A stretch of 64,000 bases of DNA from Erysipelotrichaceae bacterium (GTDB lineage Bacteria > Bacillota_I > Bacilli_A > RFN20 > CAG-449). The stretch spans positions 1-64,000 of the forward strand of contig SVBD01000001.1 of assembly GCA_015059045.1 (NCBI GenBank). Reading direction: 5' to 3'. The notes below the pieces were generated by a model. That model did no database searches. It was not told the DNA's origin and saw only the letters and a list, made by a program, of their open reading frames with translations. Made by a program: the position numbers and the translations under genes. Numbering within the stretch: position 1 is the first letter of the stretch; the number at the start of each line of letters is the position of its first letter. Positions 23,163 through 34,860 of the stretch are shown piece after piece.

Positions 23163-23193
23163 TTGACAAAAATATGCGGGGGGGGGGTATAAT
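23163..23193 (+). promoter_or_regulatory. Poly-G promoter, putative phase-variable promoter 1
   Basis: TTGACA (23163-23168) and TATAAT (23188-23193) are perfect consensus boxes. The 19 bp spacer contains ten consecutive G (23178-23187) directly against the -10. Slippage in the G run would change the spacer length and thus promoter strength; 17 bp would need eight G. A near-identical promoter lies at 30245-30276. Confidence 0.82.
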
Positions 23194-23234
23194 TTTTATG
23201 AATATATAATTAATTATATAAATGGAGGTTCCAT

Positions 23235-25496
23235 ATGAATAATAAGAATAGAAAATCGTTTCGTTTTACATTATCTTTCCTTTTAGCGGCTTTTTTAGGT
23301 TTTGGAATGGTTTCTTGTGGAGAAAATAATAATCCTATAAGTAATCAATCATCTCAAGAATCTATTAGCGAAAATGTTAGTTCTAACGAAGATAGTTCAT
23401 TTGTATCATCTGAATCAAGTGAAGAATCTTCTAATGAAGAAACATCAGAAGAAGAAAGTAGTGAATTACCACCATCTTCAGAAGTAACAAGTGAGGATGC
23501 AACATCAGAAGAAATAAGTTCAAATGTAACAAGTGAAGAATCTTCTAATGAAGAAACATCAGAAGAAGAAAGTAGTGAATTACCACCATCTTCAGAAGTA
23601 ACAAGTGAAGATGCAACATCAGAAGAAATAAGTTCAGAAGTAACAAGTGAAGAATCTTCAAGTGAAGAAACATCAGAAGAAGAAAGTAGTGAATTACCAC
23701 CATCTTCAGAAGTAACAAGTGAAGATGCAACATCAGAAGAAATAAGTTCAGAAGTAACAAGTGAAGAATCTTCAAGCGAAGAAACATCAGAGGAAGAAAG
23801 TATCGAACATACTCATGTTTACGAAGAAGAAATATTAGTAGAACCAACATGTGAAAAAAAAGGTTATACAAAATATACATGTCATTGTGGTGATATTTAT
23901 GTGGAAACTATTCCTGAATTAGGACACGATTTAACTTATCATCCAGCTATTGCTCCATCATGTACAACTCCAGGATGTAATGATTATGAATCATGTAATA
24001 GATGTGATTATACAACTTTAGAAACTATACCAGCATTAGGTCATAATGAAGCAACAACCCCACAAATTGATCCTACATGTACTAGTGTAGGATATACAGA
24101 AGTAATATATTGCTCAGTATGTGATGAAATTTTTGTGGAGAAAGAAGAAATTCCAGCATTGGGACATTCATATGAAGAAGAAATATCAGTAGAACCAACA
24201 TGTACAGAAGAAGGTTATACAAAATATACATGTCATTGTGGTGATATTTATGTGGAAACTATTCCTGAATTAGGACACGATTTAACTTATCATTCAGCTA
24301 TTGCTCCATCATGTACAATACCTGGATGTAATGATTATGAATATTGTAATAGATGTGATTATACAACTTTAGAAGAAATACCAGCATTAGGTCATAATGA
24401 AGTAACAATCCCACAAATTGATCCAACATGTGAAGGAGTAGGATATACAGAAGTAATATATTGCTCAGTATGTGAAGAAATTTTAGTGGATAAAGAAGAA
24501 ATTCCTGCAGTAGGACATACATATGAAGAAGATGTGATAGCTCCAACATGTACAGAAGAAGGTTATACAAAATATACATGTCATTGTGGCGATACATATA
24601 ATGATAATTATGTAGATGTCTTAGGACATACATATGAAGAAGAAGTTGTAGAACCAACATGTACAGAAGAAGGTTATACAAAATATACATGTCATTGTGG
24701 CGGTATATATAAAAATAATTATGTAGATGCTTTAAATCATAATTTTGTTGATGGATTATGTGAAAATTGTGGATGTGAATATTATTATAGTCAAGACTTA
24801 TTATATGATTTAGTTGAAAACAATGGTGAATATTATTATCGTGTTGAAGGTAATGGAAATAATAAAAATAGTGAAATTGTAATTCCTTCAATGCATAATG
24901 GATATCCAGTTAAAGAAATTGGATATGGAGCATTTAAAGGAGTCGGAATAACAAGTCTCATATTCTTAAAAAATTCAAATGTTGAATTAATAGAAGCTAG
25001 TGCATTTGAAAATTGCCAATATTTAAATAAAATAATTTGGCCTGATAGTTTAAAGAAAATAGAACAAAATGCTTTTTTTGGTTGTGTTAAACTTATTAGA
25101 ATTAAATTTCCTGAATCTTTAGAAGAAATTGAACCTGGAATATTCCAAAATTGTGAATCGTTAATTAGTGTTGAATTTCCAAGTAAAATTACTAAATTAA
25201 ATGGTTATTTATTTGGTAATTGTTCTTCATTACAAAAAGTAGTGACCAAAGGTGAAATTGAAACTATTGGCGATAGTTTATTTGCATATTGTAATAAATT
25301 GGAGTACTTTATAATTCCTTGGACTGTAGAAAACATGGGTGGAAAAGTATTTGAAGGCTGTGACAATGTTGTCATTTATTGTGAATTTGAAGAAGAGCAA
25401 TTTGGTTGGTCGGTATTATGGAATCAAGGTAATAGACCTGTTTATTGGAAAGGCCAATGGGAATATGTAGACGGAATTCCTACTCCAATTGAATAA
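23235..25496 (+). CDS. Repeat-rich surface lipoprotein with BspA-type LRR domain
   Basis: A 753-residue exported lipoprotein: signal peptide with lipobox MVSC and lipid Cys at residue 28. Domains in order: a Ser/Glu-rich stalk with three 38-residue tandem repeats plus a partial fourth (62-189); a region of Cys-containing modules (about 192-510) built on 'PTCTEEGYTKYTCHCGD...LGH'; and a C-terminal block (about 530-735) of BspA/LRR_5 repeats (PSMHNGYPVKEIGYGAFKG, FENCQYLNKIIWPDSLKKI). BspA-like proteins mediate binding to host or microbial surfaces. GGAGG precedes the ATG. It is driven by the poly-G promoter, so surface display is probably phase-variable, and its repeats could vary in number. 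Confidence 0.88.
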   Translation: MNNKNRKSFRFTLSFLLAAFLGFGMVSCGENNNPISNQSSQESISENVSSNEDSSFVSSESSEESSNEETSEEESSELPPSSEVTSEDATSEEISSNVTSEESSNEETSEEESSELPPSSEVTSEDATSEEISSEVTSEESSSEETSEEESSELPPSSEVTSEDATSEEISSEVTSEESSSEETSEEESIEHTHVYEEEILVEPTCEKKGYTKYTCHCGDIYVETIPELGHDLTYHPAIAPSCTTPGCNDYESCNRCDYTTLETIPALGHNEATTPQIDPTCTSVGYTEVIYCSVCDEIFVEKEEIPALGHSYEEEISVEPTCTEEGYTKYTCHCGDIYVETIPELGHDLTYHSAIAPSCTIPGCNDYEYCNRCDYTTLEEIPALGHNEVTIPQIDPTCEGVGYTEVIYCSVCEEILVDKEEIPAVGHTYEEDVIAPTCTEEGYTKYTCHCGDTYNDNYVDVLGHTYEEEVVEPTCTEEGYTKYTCHCGGIYKNNYVDALNHNFVDGLCENCGCEYYYSQDLLYDLVENNGEYYYRVEGNGNNKNSEIVIPSMHNGYPVKEIGYGAFKGVGITSLIFLKNSNVELIEASAFENCQYLNKIIWPDSLKKIEQNAFFGCVKLIRIKFPESLEEIEPGIFQNCESLISVEFPSKITKLNGYLFGNCSSLQKVVTKGEIETIGDSLFAYCNKLEYFIIPWTVENMGGKVFEGCDNVVIYCEFEEEQFGWSVLWNQGNRPVYWKGQWEYVDGIPTPIE
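23418..23801 (+). repeat. 114 bp tandem repeats in the Ser/Glu stalk
   Basis: Three units of 114 bp (38 residues each, residues 62-99, 100-137 and 138-175) and a partial fourth, almost identical at the DNA level. They differ mainly by AAT/AGT and a few synonymous changes. The frame is kept, so unit gain or loss would only change stalk length. Confidence 0.9.
23802..24750 (+). repeat. Imperfect Cys-module repeats
   Basis: A large unit of three modules ('PTC..GYTKYTCHCGD', 'PSCT.PGCNDYE.CNRCDY', 'PTC..VGYTEVIYCSVC.E', each closing with LGH or VGH) occurs twice, from about 23810 and again from about 24160. Two further single GYTKYTCHCGD modules follow. DNA identity between copies is high over long stretches, so recombination among them is possible. 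Confidence 0.85.
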
Positions 25497-28654: not shown

Positions 28655-29262
28655 TGAAAGAAAAGTTAGTTAATTTACATGAATTATGTAAAAAATACCA
28701 TATATACTTCTATTTGATTATGGTAGGATTAATCGCTCTTGATTTAACTACTAAATATGTGATGGAAGCAATTTTACTTGATGCACCAAATCATAGGATA
28801 GAAGTAATTGATGGCTTCTTTACCTTGAGTTTAGTTTACAATCCAGGAGCATTCTCTGGAATGCTAGGTGATAGTATTTTTGGAAGAATTATTTTAATGT
28901 TATTGTCTCTTATATGTGGAGTAGTAATGTTATGGTATTTCATTAAATCATTTTCTAAAATGGGTAAATTAGAGTTGTTTGGTATTACTTTAGCAATTCC
29001 AGGTACCTTAGGAAACTTATGGGATCGTACTTTACAAGTCTTTGGTCTACAAGAAGGAGTAATCGACTTCTTGGAATTTGATTTGGGCTTTATGGTATGG
29101 AATACATTTAATATCGCTGATTCATTACTTGTAATTGGTATTATTGCTTTTGCAGTTGGATATCTAATTAGAGACAGTAAAGAAGAGAAGAAAAAAGAAC
29201 AAGAACGTTTGAAATTCTATGAAGAAAAGAAAAACGAGGAAGAAGAGTTAAAAGATGAATAA
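28654..29262 (+). CDS. lspA: Lipoprotein signal peptidase (signal peptidase II)
   Basis: A 202-residue membrane aspartyl protease that cuts lipoprotein signal peptides. Four membrane helices are visible, with VYNPGAFSGM, the catalytic Asp in GVIDFLEF and the second in FNIADSLLVIG. It is about 35 residues longer than usual because of a charged Lys/Glu C-terminal tail. One-base overlap (TAATG) with ileS. Its likely substrates in this window include the lipoproteins at 23235, 38921, 40002, 42088 and 58166. Confidence 0.92.
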   Translation: MKEKLVNLHELCKKYHIYFYLIMVGLIALDLTTKYVMEAILLDAPNHRIEVIDGFFTLSLVYNPGAFSGMLGDSIFGRIILMLLSLICGVVMLWYFIKSFSKMGKLELFGITLAIPGTLGNLWDRTLQVFGLQEGVIDFLEFDLGFMVWNTFNIADSLLVIGIIAFAVGYLIRDSKEEKKKEQERLKFYEEKKNEEEELKDE

Positions 29263-30169
29263 AGTAGTAGTCACAAATGAATTTGAACAAACTCGTTTAG
29301 ATGCATTTTTAGTAACTCTTTTAGATGGTAAATCAAGAAGTTACGCTCAAAAGGTAATTGAAGAAGGTAAATGTCTAGTCAATGGTAAAACAAGCAAACA
29401 CTCTTATAAAATAAGAGTGAATGATGTAATTGAATATGATTTATTAGAAGAAAAACAATTAAACTTAGAAAAGAAAGACATCTCTTTAGATATTATTTAT
29501 CAAGATGAAGATATCGTTGTGATTAATAAACCTAGAGGAATGGTGGTTCACCCTTCTAATGGTCATTATGATGGAGATACATTAGTTAATGCATTATTAT
29601 ATTCAATCAAAGATTTATCAAGCATTAATGGGGTAGTGCGCCCAGGTATTGTTCATCGTATTGATAAAAATACTTCTGGCTTACTTGTAGTCGCTAAAAA
29701 TGATACCGCTCATATTTTCCTTCAAGAACAATTAAAGGATCATTCAATGCATAGAGAATACTATGCTTTAGTGGAAGGAGTAATTCCTCATACTGATATT
29801 AAAATTGATGCGCCAATTGGAAAAGATCCTAAAGATAGATTAAAAAGAGCAATTGATATCTATGAAGGAAAAGACGCAGTAACTCATGTTCACGTTGAAG
29901 AAAGATTTAAAGAACATACACTTGTTTCTTGTAGACTTGAAACTGGTAGAACTCATCAAATTAGAGTTCATTTAAGATATATTAATCACCCAATTGTTGG
30001 TGATCCAGAATATGGTAAAAGACATCAAAAATTCTCTTGTTCAGGACAAATGTTACATGCGTATAAATTAACTTTTATTCATCCAACAACAAAGAAAGAG
30101 ATGACATTTACTTGTCCTAGAGATAGTGAATTTGAATGTGTATTAGAACAAGCAAGAAATTTAAAATAA
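29255..30169 (+). CDS. RluA/RluD-family 23S rRNA pseudouridine synthase
   Basis: A 304-residue enzyme with an N-terminal S4 RNA-binding domain (RLDAFLVTLLDGKSRSYAQKVIEEGKCLVNG is the pattern) and the catalytic core with HRIDKNTSGLLVVAKN, where D137 is the catalytic Asp, and RTHQIRVHL near the end. Size and domain order fit RluD. It overlaps the end of lspA by eight bases. Last gene of the operon. Confidence 0.93.
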   Translation: MNKVVVTNEFEQTRLDAFLVTLLDGKSRSYAQKVIEEGKCLVNGKTSKHSYKIRVNDVIEYDLLEEKQLNLEKKDISLDIIYQDEDIVVINKPRGMVVHPSNGHYDGDTLVNALLYSIKDLSSINGVVRPGIVHRIDKNTSGLLVVAKNDTAHIFLQEQLKDHSMHREYYALVEGVIPHTDIKIDAPIGKDPKDRLKRAIDIYEGKDAVTHVHVEERFKEHTLVSCRLETGRTHQIRVHLRYINHPIVGDPEYGKRHQKFSCSGQMLHAYKLTFIHPTTKKEMTFTCPRDSEFECVLEQARNLK

Positions 30170-30170
30170 A

Positions 30171-30198
30171 AAAAGTATCCGCTCGGATACTTTTTTTT
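30171..30198 (+). terminator. ileS-lspA-rluD operon terminator
   Basis: AAAAGTATCC pairs with GGATACTTTT around a short GC-containing loop, followed by eight T. Confidence 0.9.
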
Positions 30199-30244
30199 GT
30201 TGATGAATTAACTAAGAAAGTTATAATCTGTGCACATAATAACA

Positions 30245-30276
30245 TTGACAAAAATATGCGGGGGGGGGGGTATAAT
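30245..30276 (+). promoter_or_regulatory. Poly-G promoter, putative phase-variable promoter 2
   Basis: TTGACA (30245-30250) and TATAAT (30271-30276) with a 20 bp spacer that holds eleven consecutive G (30260-30270). The stretch ATTGACAAAAATATGC before the G run is identical to promoter 1 at 23163. At this tract length the spacer is 3 bp longer than optimal, so the promoter may be weak or off in the sequenced cells. Confidence 0.82.
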
Positions 30277-30304
30277 AATTATAAATTAAATTAGGGGATA
30301 AAAT

Positions 30305-31465
30305 ATGGGACAATTAGATAATTATAACCAAATGATTAATGAACTTGAAATTTTTAAAAATTTAAAAATTTCTTCGATGGTTTTAGAAAAAGAAAGTATA
30401 ACGTTAAAAAATAATATTAATGAACAAATGTTAGCAAATATTTTTGATAATTCATATGATCCAAATATAAAACAATATGTTAAAGAATTTTTAAAACAAC
30501 GGGATGATAATAATTTCATTGATAAATTAATTTGTAAAGCAAAACAATCATTAAAAAATAAAATTTATGAAAGCGAATATAAAATGCGTAAATTAAATTG
30601 TAAAAAAATCATCATTAATTTTCTTTTCTCAATATTAATTCTTTGCCTTTTATCTACTGGGATATTTTTATTTATAAAAGAAGGATATTCAAACAATGCA
30701 ACAAGTCTTACTTTAGGGATAATTCCAACTTTTATAACTATTGGTGCTTATTATTTATGGAAATCTGGAAACAATACAAAGTCAATAGGACTTATAATGT
30801 TAGAAATTGGATATTTTATTATTTCTTTGCTCATAATGTATGCCGGTGGTAATGCAACTCATAAAGGTTCTTTACCTTTTTATATTTTTCATTATTTGTT
30901 ATTAGTGGCAATATTTACACTTATTATTAATTGGATACACATATTAAAAAATATAAGGTCAAAAAAAGAGAATTTACATGCAATAGTTCTAAATTGTAAA
31001 AATTACGATTTCAATATGTTTGAATATTATTTTAATAAATTAAATTATTTAGAAAATCAATTAAGTGAATTGAAAAAAAATATAAATAAAACAAATGAAT
31101 TAATTACAGTTGCTAAAAGAAAAGCTAAAATTTTACCTCAAAAATATATTGATTACATTAGTCCGTTTGATAATGTTCCTGCCGTGTTTGATATTTTTAA
31201 TATTGCAAAAGATAAAAGAGCATTTACAATCAATGAAGTTATTAATGTCTATATTGAAGATGAATTTAAAAAGGAGCAAAGACTACATATGAATACTATG
31301 GAAGAATTAAATAAAAAAAGAAATAATTTTTATAATAATGTCATAAATCAAAATAATCAATTGCTAAATGATATTAAAAAACAAGGCAAATATTTGTCGG
31401 AAATTGAAAATAAAATTAAAAACATAGAAATACCTTCTACAATTGATGTAAGAATTATAGATTAA
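30305..31465 (+). CDS. Unknown membrane protein under a poly-G promoter
   Basis: A 386-residue protein. Residues 1-95 are helical and soluble; four membrane helices follow at about 101-125, 130-150, 158-180 and 188-212. A long C-terminal helical region of coiled-coil character (about 215-380) includes FDIFNIAKDKRAFTINEVIN. No signal peptide. No family is recognised with confidence. Lys- and Asn-rich composition sets it apart from neighbouring housekeeping genes, suggesting an accessory gene. AGGGGATA precedes the ATG. Its promoter is a near copy of that of the surface lipoprotein, so the two are probably members of one phase-variable set. Confidence 0.7.
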   Translation: MGQLDNYNQMINELEIFKNLKISSMVLEKESITLKNNINEQMLANIFDNSYDPNIKQYVKEFLKQRDDNNFIDKLICKAKQSLKNKIYESEYKMRKLNCKKIIINFLFSILILCLLSTGIFLFIKEGYSNNATSLTLGIIPTFITIGAYYLWKSGNNTKSIGLIMLEIGYFIISLLIMYAGGNATHKGSLPFYIFHYLLLVAIFTLIINWIHILKNIRSKKENLHAIVLNCKNYDFNMFEYYFNKLNYLENQLSELKKNINKTNELITVAKRKAKILPQKYIDYISPFDNVPAVFDIFNIAKDKRAFTINEVINVYIEDEFKKEQRLHMNTMEELNKKRNNFYNNVINQNNQLLNDIKKQGKYLSEIENKIKNIEIPSTIDVRIID

Positions 31466-32428: not shown

Positions 32429-32553
32429 TTTTTCACCTGTTTCTATTGTATCACTTTTATTCTCACTACTAAAAGATAATTTAAATTATTAGAACATTTA
32501 TTAAATCTATTAATTTAATTAATGTTTTTTGGTATAAATATAATTAGGTGATT

Positions 32554-34860
32554 ATGGTGAAAGATATTTATAAAGCCTTTGAATTTGATATTATCAAAGA
32601 AAATTTAGAAAAATATGTTAAAGGTGAAGTTGCCTTAAGACAAATTAGAGAACTAGAAATGTTTACTTCTTCAGAAGAACTTAAGAAAGAATTAAGTTAT
32701 TTAGAAGAAATGATTTCATATACTTTAAAATATCGTTCACTTGTTATTAATCCTCATAATGATATAGTCTATCAATTAATTTCACTTACTAAAGATGGAG
32801 TAGGATCAATTGAGTTCTTTTATCAAATATCATCCCTTTTAGAAAACGTTGATATTTTAAAAGAAGAATCATCTAAAGATGATAAATATCCTTTAATCAT
32901 GGAAATGCTATCAAATTTAATTTCTATTCCTTCATTAAAGAATCAAATTGATCACATTATTACTAGAGATTTACAAATCTCTGATAATGCTTCAAGTGAA
33001 TTAAGAAGTATTAGACGTAATTTAAGAAATGAAGAACAAGGACAAAGTAAATTAATTAATTCTCTTGTTTTAAGATATAAAGATATTTTAAATAGTGAAA
33101 AATATACAATGAGAAATTCTTCTTATGTATTACCAGTTAAATCCAGTTATAAAAATTCTGTAAGTGGAATTGTTGTAGATGAATCAGATAGTAAATTAAC
33201 GGTTTTTATTGAACCAACTGAAATCTTAGAATCAAATAATAAAATCGCCAGATTAAAAGAAAAAGAGTATGAAGAAATTAAAAGAATTCTTAAAGAGCTC
33301 TCTATTTATACTTTAAAATATATTGAACCATTAAGATCTAACATTGATATTGTTAATAGATTAGATTTCCTTTTAGCGAAGGCTAATTATGCTTTAGATA
33401 TTAAAGCGGAAGTAGCAAATATTACTAATGAAAGAGTGATATATTTAAAAAATGCTCGCCATCCTTTAATTGATAAAGATAAAGTAGTCAGTAATTCATT
33501 CTTTTTAGATAAACAAAAGATTATGGTCATTTCTGGCCCTAATGCTGGTGGTAAAACAGTTTGTTTAAAAGTTATTGGCTTACTTGTTATTATGAATCAA
33601 TGTGGACTTGCTTTGCCAACAAGTGAAAAGGCTAATTTATGTTTCTTTGATAAGATTTTTGTTGATATGGGTGATAATCAATCATTAATGGATAATTTAT
33701 CTACTTTCTCAGGTCATATTAAAAATTTAAAAGAAATTTTAGATGAAGTTACTAAAGACTCTTTAGTAATTTTAGATGAACTTGGAACAGGAACTTCACC
33801 TTTAGAAGGAGAAGCTTTAGGTGTAGGTGTTATTACTCATCTTAACAATTTAGGTTGTTTTGGTATTTTTACAAGCCATTATGAAGGATTAAAATCTTTT
33901 GCTTTAGAAAATGAATATATATTAAATGCTTCAATGGCATTTGATGAAGAGAATATTGTTCCTACTTACCATCTTCGTTTGGGAGTTGCAGGTAAATCAT
34001 ATGGAATTGAATTAAGTCAAAGAATGGGTGTAGAAGAAAATGTTATTTCTTTATCTAAAGAATATTTAGAAAATAAAGTAAAATCTGATAAAGAAGTCAC
34101 TCTTGCACTTTTAAACCAAAGACTTGAAGAAAACGAATTTATTAAAATGGAACTTCTTAGAAAAGAAGAAGAACTAGATAAAAGAAATATCGAATTAGAA
34201 AGAGAAATCGAAAAATATAAGCGTTTAGAGAATAAAATCTTCTTGGAAAGTGAAAAGGAAAAAGAAAAACTTATTCAAAAAGCTAAAGAAGAAATTGAAG
34301 AAATTATGGATGAATTTAAAAAGTCATCTTCTTATAAAATGCACGAAGTAATTGCTTCCAAAAAGAAACTTGATGATCTTTCTTCTATAGAAGAAGAGGA
34401 AGAATCAATTAGCAAAGTGATCAATGTAAATGATTACGTAAGAATTATCGATTCTGATATTACAGGAAAAGTAATTAGAATCAAAGGGGATAAGATTTCT
34501 TTAATTAGTGAACAAGGAATGAATTTAAATGTTAAATTGTCACAAGTAGAAAGATACTTCCCTAAAAAGAAAGTAAAAAAAGTTCAAACTACTTCACTTT
34601 TTAAAACTACAAAAATTGTTAAATTAGAATGCAATTTAATCGGTTTAAGAGTTGAAGAAGCTCTTTTGGAACTTGATAAATATATTGATGATGCCATTGT
34701 GGCAAGATATAAAGAAGTAAGAATTGTTCATGGATCAGGAACTGGAGCGTTAAGAGAAGCAGTTCATAATTATTTAAATCGAAGAAAAGAAATAAAGTCA
34801 TATCGTCTTGGTGGCCTTGGAGAAGGTGGCGTTGGCGCAACGGTGGTATATTTTAAATGA
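32554..34860 (+). CDS. mutS2: Endonuclease MutS2
   Basis: A 768-residue MutS-family ATPase without the mismatch-recognition domain. It has the lever/clamp coiled-coil region, Walker A GPNAGGKT (328-335), LVILDELGTGTSP, a second coiled coil at about 515-595 and a C-terminal Smr nuclease domain (about 690-768) with GLRVEEALLELDKYID and RIVHGSGTGALR. MutS2 acts in recombination control or ribosome rescue depending on species. The ATG at 32554 is chosen because a GTG at 32548 lies inside the AGGTGATT ribosome site; GTG 32557 is also possible. It overlaps uvrC by four bases. Confidence 0.94.
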   Translation: MVKDIYKAFEFDIIKENLEKYVKGEVALRQIRELEMFTSSEELKKELSYLEEMISYTLKYRSLVINPHNDIVYQLISLTKDGVGSIEFFYQISSLLENVDILKEESSKDDKYPLIMEMLSNLISIPSLKNQIDHIITRDLQISDNASSELRSIRRNLRNEEQGQSKLINSLVLRYKDILNSEKYTMRNSSYVLPVKSSYKNSVSGIVVDESDSKLTVFIEPTEILESNNKIARLKEKEYEEIKRILKELSIYTLKYIEPLRSNIDIVNRLDFLLAKANYALDIKAEVANITNERVIYLKNARHPLIDKDKVVSNSFFLDKQKIMVISGPNAGGKTVCLKVIGLLVIMNQCGLALPTSEKANLCFFDKIFVDMGDNQSLMDNLSTFSGHIKNLKEILDEVTKDSLVILDELGTGTSPLEGEALGVGVITHLNNLGCFGIFTSHYEGLKSFALENEYILNASMAFDEENIVPTYHLRLGVAGKSYGIELSQRMGVEENVISLSKEYLENKVKSDKEVTLALLNQRLEENEFIKMELLRKEEELDKRNIELEREIEKYKRLENKIFLESEKEKEKLIQKAKEEIEEIMDEFKKSSSYKMHEVIASKKKLDDLSSIEEEEESISKVINVNDYVRIIDSDITGKVIRIKGDKISLISEQGMNLNVKLSQVERYFPKKKVKKVQTTSLFKTTKIVKLECNLIGLRVEEALLELDKYIDDAIVARYKEVRIVHGSGTGALREAVHNYLNRRKEIKSYRLGGLGEGGVGATVVYFK

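Follow-up and report, generated by a model that had tools for sequence, protein, structure and literature searches.

Poly-G tracts in the spacers of sigma-A-type promoters as candidate phase-variable switches in an Erysipelotrichaceae genome and other Bacillota

Introduction

Slippage of a homopolymer lying in the promoter spacer is the textbook mechanism of the Neisseria genes porA and fetA. In porA, a poly-G tract lies between the -10 and -35 hexamers (van der Ende 1995, cited in PMC5084427 and PMC5320596), the repeat having the form (T)n C (G)n T (PMC5320596, Table 1), and in fetA a poly-C tract is placed in the promoter spacer (Carson 2000, cited in PMC5320596). Only three transcriptionally phase-variable genes of the gonococcus are listed in PMC5320596, porA being one of them. 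In Mycoplasma hyorhinis, poly-A is present in every vlp promoter (Citti and Wise 1995, cited in PMC10502178) and homopolymer slippage operates in these promoters (PMC10502178). C-stretch promoters have also been described for fim2, fim3 and fimX of Bordetella (PMC1891110).

No paper on poly-G spacer promoters of Bacillota was found in the open-access literature searched. The preliminary description of the DNA analysed here had gone further, naming no described system of this kind, which was too strong a statement in view of porA, fetA and vlp.

Results

Two poly-G promoters with a common core

The window (i.e. the whole stretch of 64,000 nucleotides that was analysed) contains two putative sigma-A-type promoters, in both of which the spacer between the -35 and -10 hexamers includes a run of G, read on the non-template strand (Table 1). 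Re-reading of both sites (30245-30276 and 23163-23193) confirmed that the cassette reported earlier occurs exactly twice, with 11 and 10 G, respectively. The A preceding TTGACA is also identical in both copies, which extends the common lead to 16 bp; beyond this A, and 3' of TATAAT, the flanks are unrelated. Dinucleotide shuffles of the window gave an expectation of 0 for G runs of at least 9. Judged by these shuffles and by the counts for the source genome, its order and its family (see below), the tracts exceed chance length and are concentrated at promoters.

The identical 16-bp lead would be expected if the window copies were hops of one mobile promoter cassette without a switching role, and an identical 9-bp lead should arise by chance in only about 1 in 1000 cases per promoter (an estimate from position frequencies). 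However, the likeness ends exactly at the promoter core, which alone is common to both copies, and it is accompanied by neither repeats nor element ends; on these grounds a mobile element was rejected. Moreover, the source genome holds no third copy, and its remaining poly-G promoters have unrelated leads. We therefore consider hops of a single element very improbable.

Table 1. Positions of the poly-G promoters and associated features (window coordinates, or contig and position for the three sites elsewhere in the source genome)
Feature	Position	Strand	Description	Basis
Promoter 1, -35 hexamer	23163..23168	+	TTGACA	sequence
Promoter 1, fixed lead	23169..23177	+	AAAATATGC	sequence
Promoter 1, G10 tract	23178..23187	+	spacer 19	sequence
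Promoter 1, -10 hexamer	23188..23193	+	TATAAT	sequence
Ribosome-binding-like motif	23224..23229	+	GGAGGT	sequence
Gene behind promoter 1 (P0001)	23235..25496	+	753-aa lipoprotein-like surface protein	
Terminator-like hairpin	30168..30197	.	13-pair stem, T tail; scan reports - strand, + strand also ends in T run	
Promoter 2, -35 hexamer	30245..30250	+	TTGACA	sequence
Promoter 2, fixed lead	30251..30259	+	AAAATATGC, same as promoter 1	sequence
Promoter 2, G11 tract	30260..30270	+	proposed slippage site setting spacer length (20 bp at present)	
Promoter 2, -10 hexamer	30271..30276	+	TATAAT, abuts 3' end of tract	sequence
Ribosome-binding-like motif	30293..30298	+	AGGGGA	sequence
Gene behind promoter 2 (P0002)	30305..31465	+	386-aa membrane protein, coiled-coil-like ends	
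Further poly-G promoter	C15:39158		TTGACA TTTTCAAAC G9 T TATAAT; ahead of small membrane protein	
Further poly-G promoter	C21:27301		TTGACA AAAATAGTCAA G9 TATTAT	
Further poly-G promoter	C21, about 28657-28663		weak -35 TTGATT, G9, TATAAT; short soluble product	

As stated in the preliminary description, the two copies precede unrelated genes, both of which have a good start codon. The lipoprotein-like product contains a lipobox (VSCG), Ser/Glu-rich repeats, Cys repeats and BspA-type leucine-rich repeats (LRR_5, E 5e-35). For the membrane protein, a Pfam search gave nothing above the cut-off and no convincing homologue was present among 279 genomes of the order; four weak matches in these genomes (E ~1e-4) look compositional or coiled-coil and were rejected. 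Since the hairpin, located between the upstream pseudouridine synthase gene and promoter 2, parts this promoter from the preceding gene, the gene of the 386-aa protein is probably an independent transcription unit.

A promoter-like pair (TTGATG-16-TATAAT), within chance expectation, was also observed upstream of promoter 2 (30200-30227); it could provide basal transcription of the same gene, a point against phase variation as the explanation. Further downstream (32548-34860), the window encodes a MutS2-type protein (MutS domain V plus Smr), which is not a mismatch-repair MutS. The stability of such tracts in a genome would be set by its MutS and MutL.

Poly-G promoters in the source genome

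The source genome (1.44 Mb, 33 contigs, 95% complete) contains only seven G runs of at least 8, five of which are spacer tracts, flanked by a -35 and a -10 hexamer. A search of the whole source genome for the 21-mer TTGACAAAAATATGCGGGGGG that tolerated up to 3 mismatches found nothing besides the two window copies. The complete-genome scan proposed earlier thus yielded no third copy of the lead, yet it revealed three further poly-G promoters, all with other leads. The idea of a 16-bp cassette widespread in this genome has to be abandoned: because the lead is common to the two window copies only, the sites represent a class in which a single promoter core has been duplicated, and many copies of one core were found instead in another genome (G304, see below). 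What did hold is that the window promoters, with their hypermutable-type spacer tracts, are part of a genome-dispersed set that is also present in relatives.

Of the three additional sites, the one at about 28657-28663 of C21, with its weak -35 hexamer and short soluble product, counts against phase variation as the explanation. The gene behind the promoter near C21:27301 (locus L012, positions 1-150) seems to contain a frameshift close to a T7 run, the ATG and a lipoprotein-like TVSCGG motif being in different frames; this gene could be a pseudogene, carry a second switch or contain an error.

Distribution in relatives and beyond

The motif G8-TATWAT was detected at 39 places in 25 of the 279 genomes of the order, where the backward pattern used as a control gave 0 matches and C8-TATWAT was likewise absent. 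In a sample of the class, it was carried by 37 of 394 genomes. The 18 genomes of the family contain 80 distinct tracts; both a -35 and a -10 hexamer could be fitted, 14-22 bp apart, around 24 of them, compared with a mean of 0.26 for shuffled flanks. Of the 80 tracts, 30 are located within long open frames, suggesting the coexistence of frame-switching tracts with the promoter type. Tracts of G8-G10 inside long open frames were observed in genomes G015 and G016 (L074, L088, L231, L232, L239, L242, L243 and L244); several of them fall in Ser/Thr-rich stretches, and they are candidate frame-switching loci.

When 84,980 species genomes were searched with the pattern TTGACA N6-14 G8 TATAAT, at least 119 stretches were obtained, about 6 chance matches being expected (an estimate from base counts alone). 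Among the matches listed, uncultured Bacilli and Clostridia, mostly from the gut, predominate, and Saccharibacteria, Spirochaetes, Streptobacillus, Streptococcus, Gemella and others are also represented; a few GC-rich matches (e.g. L175, L213) may be due to chance. Carriers often have many sites: 38 in G304, 31 in G315, 20 in G286, 19 in Streptobacillus notomytis (G294), and 18, 17, 12 and 12 in others. The reversed control was 0 in the promoter-rich genomes, with the exception of one Helicobacter, and in the majority of these promoter-rich genomes the G runs of at least 8 are largely of the spacer-promoter type. Just two viral contigs with poly-G promoters were found. An exact lead, AAGTGCC, is common to three different Clostridia genomes (L102 with G9, L125 with G11, L200 with G10); the promoter core may be conserved there or may have been transferred.

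Some MAGs have many of their tracts at contig ends, as would be the case if poly-G were an assembly or sequencing artefact of two-colour chemistry; in G304, 19 of the 38 are less than 100 bp from a contig end (p ~2e-23, 125 contigs assumed). Against such an origin, many independent assemblies, some of them of cultured strains (L121, L199, L212), have tracts that precede genes and are flanked by near-consensus hexamers; moreover, tracts are internal to long contigs, and the reversed and C controls are zero. We regard an artefact as almost out of the question. The clustering in G304 was not counted as proof of polymorphism either, because near-identical repeated cassettes and poor sequencing of poly-G also break assemblies.

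Genes behind the promoters

In 138 promoters with a downstream gene, the start codon is typically located 20-60 bp past the -10 hexamer and preceded by a ribosome-binding site. According to simple hydropathy rules (not SignalP), a signal peptide or lipobox is present in 64 of 101 downstream genes versus 44 of 288 other genes of the same stretches (OR 9.6, p 4e-19), and any membrane feature in 86 of 101 versus 95 of 288 (OR 11.6, p 3e-20). The families include BspA-type LRR proteins, InlB-like B-repeats, Ig-like domains and YSIRK signals, as well as five ABC ATPases. The lipoprotein-like and membrane proteins of the window agree with this general enrichment in surface and envelope genes.

Variation of tract length

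Several homologous promoters differ in their number of G: L056/L066, with 93% identical proteins (G10/G9), L063/L064 (G10/G9), L155/L166 (G8/G9), L102/L125 (G9/G11) and the L139 pair; the leads are conserved in some of these and diverged in others. In G304, a paralogous exported-protein family stands behind TTGACAATACCACCCT-Gn-TATTAT, and the 16 copies with an identical lead carry G9 (six), G10 (eight) or G11 (two). This is a true dispersed promoter cassette. The genome (Lapin-017__bin44, L323-L355) encodes about three dozen such paralogues (..SYVLAETLIDSKDVYYKDNSGLLA..NVQDAIDGTC..), each with a poly-G promoter cassette; the one tested has a domain resembling the C-terminal part of phage-baseplate Gp10 (Pfam PF21939). 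A tandem array in G612 (L322, C6:7600-27500) encodes seven exported proteins that are paralogues of one another; most are spaced by about 2 kb, and a separate poly-G promoter precedes each of them (G9 in six, G8 in one).

Unequal tracts were thus observed among paralogues and orthologues of other genomes, i.e. between loci rather than at one locus within a species. The difference between G10 and G11 in the window, from which variation had been deduced earlier, is real, but taken alone it does not count as evidence of switching. Among the viral contigs searched there were no close strains for comparison of tracts.

These data also bear on whether the tract does not switch but plays a constant structural or binding role, for instance as the site of a protein or as an A-form spacer tuning promoter strength. 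Its consistent polarity (the coding strand always has G, never C), the C preceding it in 102 of 148 sites and the narrow modal length (G9 in 73 of 148) would fit such a role. In contrast, homologous promoters with an identical lead differ in length, and the tracts within long open frames of the family resemble classical contingency loci. Moreover, the leads have almost no common sequence between genomes, which speaks against a fixed-sequence protein site. We consider a fixed element improbable, though less so than the mobile cassette.

Spacer lengths

The spacers of the 148 poly-G sites measure 14 bp (4 sites), 15 (16), 16 (19), 17 (8), 18 (39), 19 (42), 20 (15) and 21 bp (5), whereas 17 bp is the commonest spacer of non-G promoters from these stretches (14 of 35 exact-consensus pairs). 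The requirement for at least 8 G skews the sample to longer spacers; with G9 fixed, it cannot produce a dip at 17. When only G9 sites were counted, once per genome, spacers of 16, 17 and 18 bp were found in 15, 2 and 15 genomes, respectively (even split, p 3e-4), which means that the lead is seldom sized to give 17 at G9. There are two readings of the dip: either the assembled majorities are weak states, with the optimum one slip off, or G-tract DNA has a different twist and an optimum of 18-19, in which case the 15-16 group would be off.

Discussion

The poly-G sites are best explained by phase variation through strand slippage that alters the spacing of sigma-A promoters, to which we assign a probability of about 0.86. 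Slipped-strand mispairing at replication would cause the tract to gain or lose G, and a step of one G would change the distance between the -35 and -10 hexamers by 1 bp and their rotation by about 35 degrees. The altered geometry would in turn change the binding of RNA polymerase and, by analogy with porA and fetA, individual cells would therefore switch the gene to high, low or nearly off; the resulting variants might be selected by host, phage or competitors. At least five genes of the source genome, several of them for surface or membrane proteins, would each have an independent switch, and the same architecture extends across many Bacillota, in places to whole paralogous families of exported proteins.

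A further proposal, to which we give about even odds, is that uncultured commensal Bacillota of the animal gut have large phasomes in which poly-G spacer promoters, as many as 38 in 1.4 Mb, grow in number together with exported-protein families. The fixed part of the spacer would be selected so that the common G9 is one or two steps from the 17-bp optimum, giving a weak default with the strong state one slip away.

Poly-G promoter sets in gut Bacilli bear on the question, named in PMC11868660, of whether pathogens alone show multi-locus phase variation: uncultured Bacilli without a known disease link, mostly gut-derived according to record titles, contain 12 to 38 sites per genome. If phase variation is the correct reading, surface-protein expression of such gut bacteria would be a mixture of cell types, invisible in gene catalogues.

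The window sites share every checkable feature of the porA/fetA type of homopolymer promoter-spacer loci. As in porA, a surface-protein gene has a sigma-70-type promoter with a G homopolymer, here too usually preceded by C, in its spacer; however, porA is among only three transcriptionally phase-variable genes listed for the gonococcus, compared with up to 38 candidate switch promoters per genome in Bacillota. In fetA, the tract length likewise sets the -10/-35 spacing, but the coding strand carries C, a polarity for which C8-TATWAT gave no match in the 279 genomes of the order. The vlp system resembles G304 and G612 in that each surface-protein paralogue has its own homopolymer promoter, although its tract is A, it belongs to another bacterial group, and the two window genes are not paralogues. 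In Bordetella fim, a promoter homopolymer also changes surface-gene transcription, but it spaces an activator-binding region from the -10 hexamer, whereas here the tract separates near-consensus -35 and -10 hexamers. The kind of mechanism is already known; its lineage and its scale appear to be new, and multi-locus sets in commensal Bacillota did not come up in the literature searched.
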